From Nocardia sp. BMG111209 (GTDB taxonomy: Bacteria > Actinomycetota > Actinomycetes > Mycobacteriales > Mycobacteriaceae), in NCBI RefSeq assembly GCF_000381925.1, contig NZ_KB907310.1, positions 558,001-622,000 of the forward strand: 64,000 nt of DNA. The letters run 5' to 3'. How positions within the stretch are numbered: the first letter of the stretch is position 1; each line of letters starts with the position of its first letter. Positions 3,653 to 52,798 of the stretch are shown in pieces. The notes under the pieces are model-generated. The model made no database searches, was not told the DNA's origin, and saw only the letters and a program-made list of their open reading frames with translations. The translations under genes were made by a program, and so were the position numbers.

Positions 3653-5305
3653 TCAATCGGCGGTCGCTACCAGGGGTTCCAGAGTCAGGGTCGGCATTTC
3701 CTTCTGGATGTACTGCAGCCGCCACCGGTCGCCGAACAGTGCGAGCACCACGCCGTCGGTGCGGGTGAAGACCTCGACGCCGCGCTGCCGGTCCAGTTCC
3801 GGCGCGGAGGCGGCGTCGGTGCGGCGGGCCAGCTGATACGGCAGGAAGTCCAGGTGCGTCTCGACGTTGAACTCGGTCAGCATGCGCGCGGTGACCACCT
3901 CGAACTGCATGGGGCCGACCGCGGCCAGTACCGGCGAGGCGTCGCCGCGAGTGTCGTTGCGCAGCACCTGCACCACGCCCTCGGAGTCCAGTTGGTCGAT
4001 GGCCTTGCGGAACTGCTTGTACTTGCCCGCGGTCTGGGCGCGCAGGGTCGCGAAATGTTCCGGCGCGAAGGAGGGGATCGGGGGGAATTCGACCTTCTTG
4101 TCCGAGAACAGCGTGTGCCCCGGCGCCAGCGCGGTCGCGTTCACCAGACCGACGATATCGCCGGGGTAGGCGGTGTCGACCGTGGTGCGATCGCGGCCGA
4201 AGACGGTCAGCGCGTATTTGGTGGCGAAGGGGCGGCCGGTCTGTGCGTGGGTGACGACCATGCCGCGTTCGAACTCGCCGGAGACGATGCGCATGAACGC
4301 CAGGCGGTCGCGGTGCGCGGCGTCCATGCCGGCCTGGACCTTGAAGATGACCGCGCTGAACGGGTCGGCGGGGATGCGTGGTGTGCCTGCGAGATCCGCG
4401 CGAGGGCCGGGGGGCGGGGCCAGTTCGATCAGGGTCTCGAGCAGTTGGCGCACACCGAAGTTCAGCATCGCGGAGGCGTAGATGACCGGGGAGGTCTGGC
4501 CGGCGAGGAACAGTTCCTGATCGTGGTCCTGTCCGGCGGCCGACAGTAGTTCGCTCTCCTCGGCTGCGGTGGTCCAGGCGTCGCCCTCTTGGGCTGCGGC
4601 CTGTTCGGGGGTGTGGTGCTCCTCGGGTGCGATGGTCGCGCCGCCGGCGGTGCGGGTGAAGTGGATGTATTCGGCTGGGGCGCCTTCGGATTCGGCGGGG
4701 CCGCGGCGTAGCAGGCCGCGGAAGTCGCCTGCGATGCCTACCGGGAGGAACAGGGGTGTCGGGGTGAGGCCGATTCGGTCGAGGATCTCGTCCAGGAGTT
4801 CCAGCGGGGCGCGGCCGGGGCGGTCCCACTTGTTGATCACGGTGATGACGGGGATGCCTCGGTCGCGGGCCACCTGGAACAGCTTCAGGGTTTGGGGTTC
4901 GAGGCCCTTGGCGGCGTCGATCAGCATGACTGCGGCGTCGACTGCGGTCAGCACTCGGTAGGTATCTTCGGAGAAGTCGGAGTGGCCGGGGGTGTCCACC
5001 AGGTTGATCACGCAGTCGCCGTATTCGAACTGGAGTGCGGTGGAGCTTACCGAGATGCCTCGGGCCTTTTCCATCTCCATCCAGTCGGAGACTGTCGACT
5101 TGCGGCCGGCTTTGCCGTGGATCGCGCCTGCTTCGGAGATGACCTTCGCGTGTAGGGCCAGGGCCTCGGTGAGGGTGGATTTACCGGCGTCGGGGTGGGA
5201 GATCACCGCGAACGTGCGCCGGCGGGCGACCTCTTCGGCCAGTCGTCCGCCTCCGGGTGTACCGGCGCGGACGCTGGCCTCGATACCGGCAGACGGGGAA
5301 TTCAC
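3653..5305 (-). CDS. prfC: peptide chain release factor 3
   Basis: RF3 is the translational GTPase that recycles RF1/RF2 from the ribosome. The 550 residues carry P-loop SHPDAGKST (36-44), switch I region RGISVSS, G3 DTPGHSDF (from 104), and G4 NKWDR (158-162); the C-terminal half fits domains II and III. The start is a GTG six bases after AGGAG; the frame stays open far upstream but without a ribosome site. Length is slightly above the usual 530. The cupredoxin gene lies 80 bp upstream on the same strand. Confidence 0.93.
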   Translation of the reverse strand: MNSPSAGIEASVRAGTPGGGRLAEEVARRRTFAVISHPDAGKSTLTEALALHAKVISEAGAIHGKAGRKSTVSDWMEMEKARGISVSSTALQFEYGDCVINLVDTPGHSDFSEDTYRVLTAVDAAVMLIDAAKGLEPQTLKLFQVARDRGIPVITVINKWDRPGRAPLELLDEILDRIGLTPTPLFLPVGIAGDFRGLLRRGPAESEGAPAEYIHFTRTAGGATIAPEEHHTPEQAAAQEGDAWTTAAEESELLSAAGQDHDQELFLAGQTSPVIYASAMLNFGVRQLLETLIELAPPPGPRADLAGTPRIPADPFSAVIFKVQAGMDAAHRDRLAFMRIVSGEFERGMVVTHAQTGRPFATKYALTVFGRDRTTVDTAYPGDIVGLVNATALAPGHTLFSDKKVEFPPIPSFAPEHFATLRAQTAGKYKQFRKAIDQLDSEGVVQVLRNDTRGDASPVLAAVGPMQFEVVTARMLTEFNVETHLDFLPYQLARRTDAASAPELDRQRGVEVFTRTDGVVLALFGDRWRLQYIQKEMPTLTLEPLVATAD

Positions 5306-5385
5306 GGACGGCTCCTGGAGTGCGGGGGGTGCAGGCGACAGCCGGTCCAGGGTACTCGACGGGGGCTGTTGAGCCGTTGGGCGGG

Positions 5386-5823
5386 TTATTGGACGGTGAC
5401 TGTGCCGCGCATGTCCGGGTGTAGGGGGCAGAGGTAGCGGTAGGTGCCTGCGATGGGGAAGGTGTAGCTCCATTCGCCCTTGGTGAAGATCGGGCTGTTG
5501 ATGCCCATTGCGGCGTCGCCTATGCCTTGTACTGCGTGGGGTACTCGGTCGGCGAACTTCCAGGTCACGGTGTCGCCGGGTTTGACTGTGAGGGTGGTGG
5601 GGGTGAACTTCATGTCCTTCACGTCCACGGTGACGGTTGTGGCGTGGGGGGTGTTGGGTGTTGGGGATGGGGTGGACTGGGGCGAGGTGGCGGCGGGGGG
5701 TGGGGGTGTTGGTGCGGAACTTGTTGTGCTCGAACCGCATCCGCTGAGGGCCAGCGCGAGTGCTAGCAGGCCGGCGGCTGGTCCGCCGGGGGCGGGCAGT
5801 CGGTGATGGGGTGCGAGATTCAT
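5386..5823 (-). CDS. cupredoxin-domain lipoprotein
   Basis: A 145-residue exported blue-copper-type protein. The signal peptide ends in the lipobox LSGC (Cys29), predicting membrane anchoring outside the cell, followed by a Pro/Thr/Ser linker. The plastocyanin/amicyanin-like domain has the expected type 1 copper ligands His96 (PHAV), Cys132, His135 and Met138 (C-P-L-H-P-D-M). It probably carries electrons or binds copper; the partner is unknown. It lies upstream of prfC on the same strand and may share its transcript. Confidence 0.85.
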   Translation of the reverse strand: MNLAPHHRLPAPGGPAAGLLALALALSGCGSSTTSSAPTPPPPAATSPQSTPSPTPNTPHATTVTVDVKDMKFTPTTLTVKPGDTVTWKFADRVPHAVQGIGDAAMGINSPIFTKGEWSYTFPIAGTYRYLCPLHPDMRGTVTVQ

Positions 5824-6604
5824 GGGGGTGAGCGTAGTGGGAGGGGTGTTGGGGGGCGGGTTTGCTTCGGGAGGGTGGGCTTTTGGCTCGGTTGTGCTTT
5901 GCTCTGGGTCGCTTGCGGGCCCGTCGGTCCGGGATCGAGGTGAGGTGGCGGGCTGAATGTTGGGCCTGCTTGGTGGTGACAGGCTGTGTTTTGGCCTCCG
6001 CTTCGCTCCGGCGGGTTCGCGGCCCTCCGGGCCCGATCCTTCCCTCCTCCGGCTCCTCCGCTTCGCTCCCCCGCCTCCGTCAGTCCAGGATCGGGCCGGG
6101 CCGCGAACAGGAGCGTTACGCCTGCGTATTGGTGACCGGCCCGGGTGTGCGGGGGCACGAAAGGCGCGTTCAGCCTGCGGATCGGTGACCGGGGCGGGCC
6201 GCGCGAGTTGGCGACTGCTCGGGACCTGCGAATCGGTAACTGGCTTGGGACTGGGGGATCGGTGATCGGCTTGAGGGCCTGCGAGTCGGTGACCGGCTCG
6301 GGGCCGGGATCGGTGACCGACTCGGGCTCGCGAATTGGTGATCGGCTCGGGACCTGTGAGTCGGTGACTGGCTCGGGGCCGGGAATTGGTGACTGGGGTA
6401 GGTGACCGAGCATGGGTTGGGGGGTCGGTGACCGCGATCACCGGGCGTGCGATGCCCCGGCGACCACGAGGCCAGGATCTGTAATCACTCGTTCGGGGCT
6501 TGATCGCTTGCTCGGGACCTGCGAATCGGTGGGCGGGTTGGGGTGGGGTGGGGCGTAGTCTGCGGGGGTTGCCGTTCGGGCGTGTGAGCGTCTAGGGAGT
6601 GCGA
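5824..6604. other. 781-bp gene-free stretch with repeats
   Basis: No convincing gene is seen between the divergent cupredoxin and nnr starts. The stretch holds the ~25-bp tandem repeat listed separately and, at about 5998-6008 and 6059-6069, two copies of CCGCTTCGCTCC within a low-complexity block. Antisense frames opened by the repeats are Pro/Arg-rich and look like artefacts. Confidence 0.6.
6178..6408. repeat. imperfect ~25-bp tandem repeat
   Basis: About eight to nine degenerate units, each starting near ATCGGTGACCGGCTCGGG and ending in CCTGCG or GGCCGGG. Examples begin near 6231, 6258, 6284, 6309, 6334, 6359 and 6385. Outlying partial copies occur at about 6127 and 6495-6530. Confidence 0.8.
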
Positions 6605-49221: not shown

Positions 49222-49554
49222 ATGTCCGGTTCGAGCATTTCCGGTACCCGCATCGCCGGCGTCGATGCCGATGCGGTCCGACGGTTCGGCGCGGTGGCGC
49301 GCCGTGCCTTCCGGGAGATCGACAGCGCGGCCGAGACGGCGCGCGAGATACAGGCGCTGGTCGCCGATCTGGTCCCGCACAGTTCCCTGGCCGCGGTCTG
49401 GTGCGAATCCGCCGACGCCGCAGCCGATCTCGTCCGCCGCAGCGCGCAATGGTTCGCCCGCCTGGCCGACCACACCGAGATCGCGGTCGAGGGCTACGCG
49501 GCCGTCGACCGCGCCGGGGCGGCCGCACTGCTCCGCGTGGAGGCACGGATATGA
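49222..49554 (+). CDS. WXG100/EspC-like small protein with YxxxD motif
   Basis: A 110-residue helical protein without a signal peptide. Two long helices are separated near VPHSS/VW60, and the second is followed by GYAAVD, a Y-x3-D motif at 92-96 that matches the type VII secretion signal YxxxD/E. The opening GVDADAVRRF resembles EspC/DUF2580 proteins. It precedes, and overlaps by ATGA, the gene for a WXG-bearing lytic enzyme, so the two probably pair. The tightly placed GAGGGGGG before ATG 49222 supports the start. Confidence 0.65.
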   Translation: MSGSSISGTRIAGVDADAVRRFGAVARRAFREIDSAAETAREIQALVADLVPHSSLAAVWCESADAAADLVRRSAQWFARLADHTEIAVEGYAAVDRAGAAALLRVEARI

Positions 49555-51632
49555 CGCCGCCGCGAATGCCCCCGCCCCGTTCGGTGGTCGAGGCATGGCG
49601 GGCCCTCGAGGCCGCCCTCGGCCTGCGCGCCCTGTTCGACCGTTCCCTGTGCGAGATGGAAAGTCTGTCCGGCGCGGTGCGCACCGAATGCCATCGGCTC
49701 GACGGCGGCGGCTGGCAGGGCGCGGCATACGACACCGTGCTGGACCATGTGGAAGCCGCGCATCACCGCAACCAACTGCTGTGGGATCGGCTGGAAACCC
49801 TGCGCGACACCGGCGCCGGGGCCCTGACCGACCTGCACTACACCGCCCTCGCCGCTCTCGACTACGCCGCCGACGCGGAGGCGGCCGGCTGTACGGTGGC
49901 CGACGACTGGACCGTCCACGCCGACCATCCCACCATCGCCGACGAATGGTCGGAGGTGCTCACCGAGGCACTCACCGCCGTCACCCGCGCCGCCGACCGC
50001 GGCCGCACCGCCATCCTCGGCGTGAGCAACGAATTCCGTTATCTGGCAGCGATGTTCGGCCTCCACACGCCGGACGACCCCACCCCCGGCGAATCTCCGG
50101 AAGCCGATGCTATTACCCCCGCATCGCATTTCGCCGATGCCGCCCCCGCAACGCATTTCGCTGATCCGGCCGGTGCCACCCGCGAGCCGTATTCCGCTGA
50201 TGCGGTCGGCGCGACCCGTGAGTCGTATGCCGCTGATGCGGTCGGCGCGACCCGTGAGTCGTATGCCGCGGATGCGGTCGGCGCGACCCGTGAGTCGCAT
50301 TTCGCGGATGTGGCCGGTGCCACCCGTGATCCGCAATCCGTCGATCCGGCCGATGCCGACCGCGAGCCTGCGTCCGGCGAGGCGGCCGAGGTTGCCGGAG
50401 CGCGTGCGGCGATTCCGGACGGCGAGTACGGGGACGAAAGTGCCGGAGACACCACATATTCCGATCCAGACAGCGCACGTACGGGCGAAAGCGTCGGAGG
50501 CACTGCGCATTACCGACAAGCTGTAGACACCGAGGAGGGGGACGACATGGGGGAGACTGGGCGGACGGACGACGTGGGGCCCGCGACGGACAGGGGCTCG
50601 GCCGACATCGGATCAGCGGGACACGCCGAGAGGGCCGGGCGGACAGTGACGGTCGAGGGCGATCATTCGTCCGGTGCCGAGGGCCCATCGGGTGAATCGC
50701 CCGTCGAGCCGCCGGAACGGTTCGGCGGCAACGGTATTCGACTGTCCGGGGTCGAGGCCGGGCAGGATGATGCGACGGTTGTGCCTCGGTATCCGCAGAG
50801 CGAACCCGATGCCGCCGCCGACTTCGCACGCGGCGATCCGAACTCGGCCGCTCTCCGGTCCGGCGACTTCGGCGTTGTCGACGCGGCGCCGCCGGGCGGA
50901 CCGCCGATGGATGAAGAGTCGACGGATATGGACGCTGCCGATGATGCCGCCGGGGAATTCGCTGACGACGCTGGTAGCTGGGATTCCGCCGACACGGAAC
51001 CCCTTGCCGCGGAGCACGAATCCGGCCTCGATGCGTTCGGCGTCGCCGCCCCGGCCACCTGGCACACCGGCCCGGTGCCCGGTCCGCACGGTGGTGTCAC
51101 GGTGGGGCAGCTCACGGCGATCATGCCGGACCTGTCGCCGGAACGGGCGGTGGAGTATCTGCCCGCGCTCAATGCCGCCATGGCGGAGGGTGGGATCACC
51201 ACACCGCTGCGGCAGGCAGCATTTCTGGCGCAGTTGGCGCACGAGAGCGGACAGCTGCGGTATTTCGAGGAGTTCGGCGACGACGGCTACTTCACTCAAT
51301 ACGACCCGGGGCAGCCGAACACAGCGGCCGGTAACACTCAGCCCGGTGACGGCCCGTTGTTCCACGGCCGCGGCCCGATCCAGCTGACGGGGCGTGGCAA
51401 CTATCGCGACGCCGGCCATGCCCTCGGGTTGGATCTGGAGGGCGATCCGGCGTCGGCGGCCCGTCCGGATATCGGATTCCGTGTCGCGCAATGGTATTGG
51501 AGTTCCCGCGCGATCAACGTTCTCGCCGACCTCGGTGATTTCGCGGCCGTCACGGCCGCGGTCAACGGTGGTCACAACGGCCTGGCCGAACGGGAGAGTT
51601 TCTACCGGCGCGCGCTGGAGGTGCTCCGATGA
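49551..51632 (+). CDS. WXG-type N-domain fused to a GH19 chitinase/lysozyme domain
   Basis: A 693-residue protein with no signal peptide. Residues 1-150 are helical with WXG at Trp55 (GGGWQGAAYD). Residues 208-279 are 12-residue GATRESYAADAV repeats, followed by a long acidic disordered linker (280-510). Residues about 514-693 are a glycoside hydrolase 19 domain: FLAQLAHESG with proposed catalytic Glu565, YFEEFG with Glu573/574, GRGPIQLTGRGNYRDAG and WYWSSRAIN. GH19 enzymes cut chitin or, in endolysins, peptidoglycan. It is coupled both ways by ATGA overlaps. Confidence 0.82.
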   Translation: MTPPRMPPPRSVVEAWRALEAALGLRALFDRSLCEMESLSGAVRTECHRLDGGGWQGAAYDTVLDHVEAAHHRNQLLWDRLETLRDTGAGALTDLHYTALAALDYAADAEAAGCTVADDWTVHADHPTIADEWSEVLTEALTAVTRAADRGRTAILGVSNEFRYLAAMFGLHTPDDPTPGESPEADAITPASHFADAAPATHFADPAGATREPYSADAVGATRESYAADAVGATRESYAADAVGATRESHFADVAGATRDPQSVDPADADREPASGEAAEVAGARAAIPDGEYGDESAGDTTYSDPDSARTGESVGGTAHYRQAVDTEEGDDMGETGRTDDVGPATDRGSADIGSAGHAERAGRTVTVEGDHSSGAEGPSGESPVEPPERFGGNGIRLSGVEAGQDDATVVPRYPQSEPDAAADFARGDPNSAALRSGDFGVVDAAPPGGPPMDEESTDMDAADDAAGEFADDAGSWDSADTEPLAAEHESGLDAFGVAAPATWHTGPVPGPHGGVTVGQLTAIMPDLSPERAVEYLPALNAAMAEGGITTPLRQAAFLAQLAHESGQLRYFEEFGDDGYFTQYDPGQPNTAAGNTQPGDGPLFHGRGPIQLTGRGNYRDAGHALGLDLEGDPASAARPDIGFRVAQWYWSSRAINVLADLGDFAAVTAAVNGGHNGLAERESFYRRALEVLR
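50172..50351 (+). repeat. in-frame 36-bp repeat in the GH19 fusion gene
   Basis: Five units from 50172 at 36-bp steps encoding GATREPYSADAV and variants, with a degenerate sixth to 50387. The second and third (50208, 50244) differ by one base. All keep the reading frame. Confidence 0.9.
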
Positions 51633-52798
51633 TCGGCGGGCCGGTACGGCGCCGGGTATTTCCGTTGTGCGCCTGCCGATTTCCGCGCGGTCGCCGGGTT
51701 GCCGTGGTGTCGGCGATCGTGTGGTTGCTGTTCGCCACCGGTTGTGCCGTACGGCTGCCGCTCCCGGGCGCCGGGCGCTCCGGCGTGGCGTTGCGCGGCA
51801 GTGTCGCCGTCGGCCCGCCGGAGCGTCCGTTCGTATTCCGTTCCGCCAGCGAGATCGTGCTGGCGACTCGGGATCGCATGATCGCGCGGCATCCCGGCCA
51901 CTACACCGATGCCGGTTTCACCCGGGACAATTCGCACGTCTACGCACTGGATGCCACGGGTACGGTGCGGGCGGTGGAGGCCCGCGGCGGCACGATGCTG
52001 CCCGGCTCGATCGACTGCCGCTGTGACCGGGTGTTCCCGCTGCACGATACGACCGTCGGCTGGTGGCGCCCGCCCGGCGACTTCGTGCAGGCGGATCTGC
52101 ACGAACCGAATCCAGCTGTGCGCGTGACGATTTCGCTGCCACCTCCGGAGGATCCGGTTGCTCCGGGCAACCTGCTGGGCGTGGCGCGGCTGCTGGCCGC
52201 CGACGATCGGACACTGGTGCTCGCCGAGACCGAGTCCCCGCCGGGAGCGAGCTGGGGTCTGACCCATCTCTTCTCGGCCGAGACCGATACCGGTGCCGTA
52301 CGTCCCCTCGGCCGGATCGACGGAGTCAACACCGCGGTCGATCGGGTCGCCCTGCACCCGTCGGGCCGGGAACTGGCCATGCCGGGTTATCAGCGCGACG
52401 GAAAGACCTGCGGCACCGCGAGATTGCTGTGGATGGAGCTGTCCGCCGCCCGGCCGGAACGGCTCGACCTGCCACCGGACGCCGGCTGTTCGATCCTGAT
52501 CGACGTCCGCTGGGACGCCGGGGTGCTCACCGTCGCCGAATTGCAGTGGCAGCCGGGCACTCCGGACCGGCCGACCGCCGGTGTGGTCTGGTCGCGGCGC
52601 GGCGCGGGATGGGAGCGCCGCGGTGGTGACGACGTGCTCCGGCATCTCACCCTCACACCGTCGGCAACGGTCCAGCTGCGGCGCGGCGACCACGATCGCG
52701 TGCACACCGAGCACACCGGTGAACTGGTGCTGGCCACGGACGACGAGGTCCGGGTACTGGCGCACGATGTGCTCGAGGTCCGCCTGCCCTACCCCTGA
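51629..52798 (+). CDS. lipoprotein with beta-propeller-like body
   Basis: A 389-residue predicted lipoprotein: basic N-terminus, hydrophobic helix and lipobox FATGC (Cys39), so it would sit on the outer face of the membrane. The rest shows repeated beta-strand blocks (FTRDNSHVYALDATGTVRAV, RVALHPSGRELAMPGY, GELVLATDDEVRVLA), suggesting a propeller. It overlaps the GH19 gene by ATGA. An immunity or anchoring role for that enzyme is possible but unproven. Its stop lies inside a tandem repeat. Confidence 0.75.
   Translation: MIGGPVRRRVFPLCACRFPRGRRVAVVSAIVWLLFATGCAVRLPLPGAGRSGVALRGSVAVGPPERPFVFRSASEIVLATRDRMIARHPGHYTDAGFTRDNSHVYALDATGTVRAVEARGGTMLPGSIDCRCDRVFPLHDTTVGWWRPPGDFVQADLHEPNPAVRVTISLPPPEDPVAPGNLLGVARLLAADDRTLVLAETESPPGASWGLTHLFSAETDTGAVRPLGRIDGVNTAVDRVALHPSGRELAMPGYQRDGKTCGTARLLWMELSAARPERLDLPPDAGCSILIDVRWDAGVLTVAELQWQPGTPDRPTAGVVWSRRGAGWERRGGDDVLRHLTLTPSATVQLRRGDHDRVHTEHTGELVLATDDEVRVLAHDVLEVRLPYP

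Follow-up and report, generated by a model that had tools for sequence, protein, structure and literature searches.

What do three overlapping genes of a Nocardia encode when the first specifies a small protein resembling a type VII secretion partner, the second a long protein ending in a GH19 domain and the third a lipoprotein, and against which wall would such an enzyme be directed? The genes lie on the forward strand of a 64,000-nucleotide stretch (the window; positions 558,001 to 622,000 of NZ_KB907310.1, assembly GCF_000381925.1) of Nocardia sp. BMG111209, a stretch taken from contig C4; the genome measures 9.1 Mb. Computation here established the open reading frames (ORFs) with their overlaps, a catalytic site of endolysin type, a type VII origin for genes 1 and 2, the conservation of the locus and the recurrence of the gene order. 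Genes 1 and 2 very probably encode a type VII partner and its substrate, the latter carrying a muramidase of endolysin type; the further reading, that ESX exports this muramidase for use against other cells and that the lipoprotein protects the producer, is the best of those considered, and we give it even odds. The original prediction, made from the sequence of the window, had noted ATGA overlaps at both junctions, a YAAVD motif in the first protein, Cys39 in the lipoprotein, no signal peptide in the first two proteins and no secretion apparatus in the window, and each of these points was borne out. ORF calls reproduced both 4-bp overlaps, and their conservation is beyond chance: all 19 copies read retain the first, and 14 of 15 retain the second, between genes 2 and 3, one of these 14 being the downstream fragment of a split gene. 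YAAVD occupies residues 92-96, and Cys39 lies inside a lipobox (ATGC). The highest mean Kyte-Doolittle value of any 15-residue segment starting within residues 1-45 is 1.42 for gene 1 (internal, at residue 45) and 0.89 for gene 2, vs. 2.29 for the lipoprotein. The window's genome has five EccB copies, all on other contigs, and at least one copy is present in each of 148 Nocardia genomes.

The structure model of the N-terminal domain (N-domain) of gene 2 has predicted helices at residues 10-49, 58-111 and 127-168, with W55-Q-G57 in the turn between the first two (block means of the predicted local distance difference test, pLDDT, 61-93 over residues 11-170). The tryptophan is present in 17 of 17 aligned GH19-bearing copies, and the interrupted copy of Nocardia vaccinii (genome G040) also reads WQG. 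Profile-profile comparison of the N-domain with those of Nocardia substrates carrying TPR_23 (EspA-like) or DUF6973 gave a probability of 98.2 (E = 3.7e-14, 164 columns), and a sister-domain profile without any member of the GH19 family still recovered the window's N-domain (6e-12). The relatives L105, L096 and L168 pass the Pfam WXG100 (PF06013) cut-off, so that kinship of the window's N-domain to WXG100 is reached indirectly, through its sister N-domains. The N-domain profile matched in 53 of the 301 genomes belonging to the taxonomic family, and 11 of its 31 genera were represented; outside Nocardia we read 21 substrates in 20 loci, of which 16 had a partner hit upstream and none had a GH19 domain. 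Tox-REase-5 exceeded the cut-off in three of ten scanned N-domain relatives, including the best match outside Nocardia, as is the case for a trafficking domain common to toxin-bearing proteins. Related N-domains are also joined to glycine-rich C-termini in another genus (L168 1816-5574, L169 3899-4876 and L170 3440-4417), L168 holding two in tandem and showing weak glycine-zipper Pfam rows under the cut-off; the cargo of these three loci is possibly membrane-active.

The profile of gene 1 matched, over nearly its full length, the small proteins that accompany other type VII substrates in Nocardia (probability 76, E = 2.2e-5, 92 columns), whereas the crossed control, gene 1 against substrate N-domains, gave a probability of 0.4; the sister-side profiles are thin (6 and 5 sequences). 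The WXG/EspC assignment of the original prediction thus stood in profile-profile comparison and failed in Pfam alone, which gave PF10824 at E = 0.44, under the cut-off, for gene 1 and zero matches for the N-domain of gene 2. Homology, predicted structure and the order of the genes all support its view of the two as a type VII partner and substrate. In 19 partner copies, D96 is invariant, residue 92 is F in 10, Y in 5, L in 2, C in 1 and S in 1, and residue 103 is L in 14, I in 2, F in 2 and A in 1; both residues are hydrophobic in all 18 copies that adjoin GH19 (residue 92 being F, Y, L or, once, C). The tail pattern published for WXG100 proteins is HxxxD/ExxhxxxH (PMC3935865). The tail fits this pattern save at the 'h' position, which is mostly non-hydrophobic, and the window's copy, with YAAVD and L103, conforms to YxxxD/E or HxxxD/ExxhxxxH. 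G006, which has no GH19 at the locus, carries S at residue 92 and A at residue 103 and has R in place of the tryptophan of WxG; inspected by eye, the GH19-free N-domain ORFs of G079 and G133 have no WxG either, and neither genome yielded a partner match. Cargo and signal are therefore missing together in three of three genomes.

The C-terminal domain of gene 2 matches GH19 in Pfam (PF00182, 6.3e-10), and structure comparison ranked lysins first, in keeping with the wall-lytic cargo originally proposed. Its catalytic glutamates are spaced by 9, as are E49/E58 of GH19 endolysins (PMC8547705) and E51/E60 of PaGH19Lys (PMC12329726), vs. E67/E89 of chitinases (PMC8547705); fold and spacing place the domain in the endolysin subfamily. 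A secreted chitinase that helps the cell to feed on fungi or attack them, while the lipoprotein captures sugar, is highly improbable, because both the spacing (PMC8547705) and the structure ranking point to lysins and because PaGH19Lys, a muramidase, is reported to leave chitin unhydrolysed (PMC12329726), even though GH19 includes chitinases and public records label some relatives 'putative chitinase' or 'predicted chitinase'. Our results suggest that these labels are wrong. The ratio of nonsynonymous to synonymous substitution rates (dN/dS, two pairs) is about 0.11-0.15 in GH19, the tightest constraint in the cassette, and about 0.63-0.73 in the linker. Two other classes of Nocardia GH19 proteins were seen. 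One has a different N-terminal region, no obvious signal peptide (by eye) and no type VII profile match in any of its four members (L071 4231-5445, L072 5292-6281, L073 4373-5674 and L074 5204-6406); the other (L076, L077 and L088) has Sec-like signal peptides (by eye).

The order of partner, substrate and lipoprotein recurs in Nocardia. A partner-profile hit lies directly upstream of 39 of 46 related Nocardia substrates, and a lipoprotein gene follows 22 of 48 within -60 to +150 nt. The 48 loci comprise 40 picked for varied frame length from a partial listing and eight examined earlier (L078-L084 and L086); L109 is the same place as the earlier L085, so 39 of the 40 were unseen when chosen, and L081 and L083, one with and one without a lipoprotein, lie outside the 46 and were added for the 48. 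Among the unseen loci a lipoprotein followed 15 of 39 substrates, vs. 3 of 222 background genes (Fisher 2e-11; a less clean background of 8 of 235 included five cassette genes). Some of the 48 loci are closely related to each other (e.g., L084, L126 and L127), and the home-made gene caller missed some genes. A strict lipobox rule drops L104, L091, L095 and L099, which a looser rule keeps and of which the last three resemble membrane proteins, and gains L079; the strict rule is itself incomplete, flagging 11 of 17 whole cassettes, whereas homology finds gene 3 in 14 of 17. The type of lipoprotein varies with the cargo, one type being common to L084 (DUF6973), L126 and L127 and others occurring in L119 (also DUF6973) and the rest. 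This fits, without proving, the proposal that a lipoprotein accompanies cargo whose site of action is outside the membrane. The window's genome itself holds a second set, at L104 3141-5660 (G000:C1), of a small partner, an 839-residue substrate and an overlapping lipoprotein.

Of the 148 Nocardia genomes, 18 carry genes 1 and 2 with GH19 (17 whole, one interrupted), and the 16 named public loci with an N-domain relative are all from Nocardia, the closest being Nocardia aurantia RB56 (88%). In a gene-3 search that scored the best 12 candidates per genome, the close subfamily adjoined a GH19 gene in 15 of 15 cases, and no gene-3 match was found in G006, G079 or G133, all without GH19 at the locus. 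These two results, together with the retained overlap between genes 2 and 3 and the lipoprotein genes that follow other substrates, count against gene 3 as an unrelated passenger, drawn from a lipoprotein family general to Nocardia, with genes 1 and 2 alone as the working unit; we regard that reading as improbable. In favour of a passenger, gene-3 relatives at 26-39% identity lie away from GH19 at seven of seven loci examined, and three of the 18 GH19 genomes gave no gene-3 match. Dedicated immunity, as originally proposed for the lipoprotein, is thus only partly supported, being favoured by the close subfamily and by the related substrates, and opposed by the enzyme-only genomes and the distant relatives; a lipoprotein widespread without GH19, which that proposal had counted against itself, was found for the distant relatives and not for the close subfamily. 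Tandem copies of the gene-3 family were seen at L052 6404-8877, L053 6034-8341, L054 6629-9075 and L051 7416-11277, with no GH19 found nearby; a gene that we take to be uppS-like is near in L052-L054, and a presumably coaA-like gene adjoins all four. In one Nocardia clade a DUF4349 lipoprotein adjoins the cassette (L063 10349-11572, L067 10524-11561, L056 6164-7234, L057 9005-10006 and L058 about 4900-6027) and may have replaced gene 3 in function there; three other genomes, the window's among them, carry DUF4349 elsewhere.

Besides the lipoprotein-free genomes and the GH19-free relatives, several observations weigh against an effector that attacks other cells while the lipoprotein shields the producer. 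Conservation within the cassette is highest in the cargo, with a mean pairwise identity of 80% for GH19 compared to 64-65% for the N-domain, 50-51% for the partner and 53% for the lipoprotein (87% for the neighbouring dnaE2, 86% for metX and 73% for trmL), and all 18 GH19 copies lie between dnaE2 and the DUF167/trmL genes with no cargo swap seen there (the window and eleven other loci, including G040, were read at length and six through named records). Arms-race toxins usually show the reverse. The C-terminal tips of polymorphic toxins are variable and exchanged, whereas here the tip is the best conserved part, and we therefore do not class the cassette as a polymorphic toxin system, although it may still work like one. 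Strict YxxxD is present in just 5 of the 19 partner copies, and in other genera a lipoprotein follows only 3 of 21 substrates, two of the three adjoining TPR_23 or TPR_23-sized proteins. Against the immunity idea, nothing weighs more than the conservation of the enzyme at its fixed locus and the three genomes that have no lipoprotein match.

The same observations, namely the strong constraint on GH19, conserved about as well as housekeeping neighbours, the constant locus and the missing lipoproteins, favour an enzyme acting on the producer's own wall, an ESX-exported muramidase that would trim peptidoglycan for growth, division or the ESX path, with the lipoprotein as local regulator or anchor. 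EssH provides a precedent for a wall hydrolase serving type VII secretion, but it is exported by Sec and is not fused to a substrate domain (PMC13059805). The N-domain family bears toxin cargo elsewhere, and the cassette, present in only 18 of 148 genomes, was lost at least in G006, so it does not encode a core wall enzyme; the loss in G006 is derived, since this genome is nested among carriers (support 0.98 in a phylogeny built on three neighbouring genes of 13 genomes). The clade of G079 and G133 is weakly placed (0.6-0.7), compatible with GH19 loss or ancestral absence. Action on the producer's own wall is the main rival of the effector reading, and we consider it the less likely of the two.

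If the muramidase is instead an effector against other cells, homology suggests the following course. The gene 1 protein would pair with the helical N-domain of the 693-residue protein, the WQG turn and the [YFL]xxxD tail would form the export signal, and one of the cell's five ESX machines would export the pair. The acidic linker may give the GH19 domain reach to peptidoglycan, where it would cut bonds between N-acetylmuramic acid and N-acetylglucosamine (MurNAc-GlcNAc), and the lipoprotein, a predicted beta-propeller on the outer side of the cell membrane, would keep the enzyme in check along the inner wall of the producer itself.

The logic of such a cassette is already in print, and close precedents exist. 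TelC of Streptococcus intermedius reportedly carries an LXG domain. TelC/TipC resembles the present case in that a type VII toxin acts in the inner wall zone, but TelC is a lipid II phosphatase of a Bacillota system (PMC6193138). TslA/TilA of Staphylococcus aureus likewise combines a type VII toxin active outside the cell with an immunity lipoprotein and small helical export partners, but TslA is a lipase with reversed domain order, TilA is a DUF576 protein and the system is a Bacillota type VII secretion system (T7SSb) (PMC10730906). Toxin-immunity cassettes of Mycobacterium abscessus prophages comprise a small WXG100 protein, a large protein with an N-terminal WXG100 motif and a variable C-terminus, and an adjacent immunity gene, several of the putative immunity proteins being predicted lipoproteins; they are prophage-borne near attachment sites, whereas the Nocardia cassette has a fixed chromosomal locus, GH19 cargo and a beta-propeller lipoprotein (PMC8092301). 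Lipocone toxins, some with WXG/LXG domains, have membrane proteins or lipoproteins for immunity (PMC12419801), and a 2012 survey named peptidoglycan-cutting glycohydrolase toxin domains of the FlgJ-type superfamily (PMC3482391). PaGH19Lys (9eoi) shares the GH19 fold, glutamate spacing and muramidase activity, but is a prophage lysin of 209 residues with no export domain (PMC12329726), and EssH, a peptidoglycan hydrolase linked to type VII secretion, has a CHAP domain and a Sec signal and is a helper rather than a substrate (PMC13059805). The TPR_23/DUF6973 substrates of Nocardia have a homologous N-domain and small partner, usually in overlapping or adjoining genes and often with a lipoprotein gene next, but differ in cargo and lipoproteins. 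Among the titles and abstract openings listed by our searches of open-licence PMC articles, none pointed to a type VII substrate that bears GH19 or to work on cassettes of this sort in Nocardia.

Table 1. Features of the three-gene cassette, in positions of the window.
Feature	Position	Strand	Basis
Gene 1, EspC/WXG100-like partner, 110 aa	49222..49554	+	ORF call and profile match
YAAVD tail motif, residues 92-96	49495..49509	+	alignment of 19 copies
Gene 2, candidate type VII substrate with GH19 cargo, 693 aa	49551..51632	+	ORF, Pfam, alignment, structure model
Type VII N-domain, residues 1-175	49551..50075	+	structure model and profile match
WxG motif, W55-Q56-G57	49713..49721	+	alignment, model
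Acidic low-complexity linker, residues 171-510, net charge -54, predicted disordered	50061..51080	+	model, composition
36-bp tandem repeat array, 5.5 copies, within linker	50155..50352	+	sequence
GH19 endolysin-type domain, residues 514-693	51090..51629	+	Pfam, structure comparison
Catalytic pair Glu565/Glu574, spacing 9, endolysin type	51243..51272	+	comparison with published numbering
Gene 3, lipoprotein, 389 aa, predicted beta-propeller	51629..52798	+	ORF, structure model
Lipobox cysteine, Cys39	51743..51745	+	invariant in 20-row alignment

The cassette is flanked on one side by what we take to be dnaE2 and a TPM-type gene, and on the other by presumed DUF167 and trmL-like genes; inspection of the neighbours by eye revealed no phage gene, unlike the prophage setting of the M. 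abscessus cassettes. In N. vaccinii an insert of ~17 kb (C9:153634-171002; L059 and L060) splits the GH19 gene and leaves the lipoprotein gene beyond it. The insert holds ORFs that are presumably MurJ-like and lytic-transglycosylase-like, and within 120 bases around each end no common stretch >6 bp was found.

Bacillota are established users of type VII secretion against bacteria; in actinobacteria, to our knowledge, little of the kind has been shown. That ESX is broadly antibacterial in Nocardia, through a large genus-wide set of cassettes of a partner, a WXG-type effector and an immunity lipoprotein, of which the present one delivers a phage-type muramidase, is a plausible proposal that we hold tentatively. 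The muramidase and its paired lipoprotein provide a directly testable case, in export, lysis and protection, and the recurring order of substrate and lipoprotein in Nocardia would supply many more. These findings suggest that Nocardia may employ the secretion system best known from tuberculosis as an antibacterial weapon.

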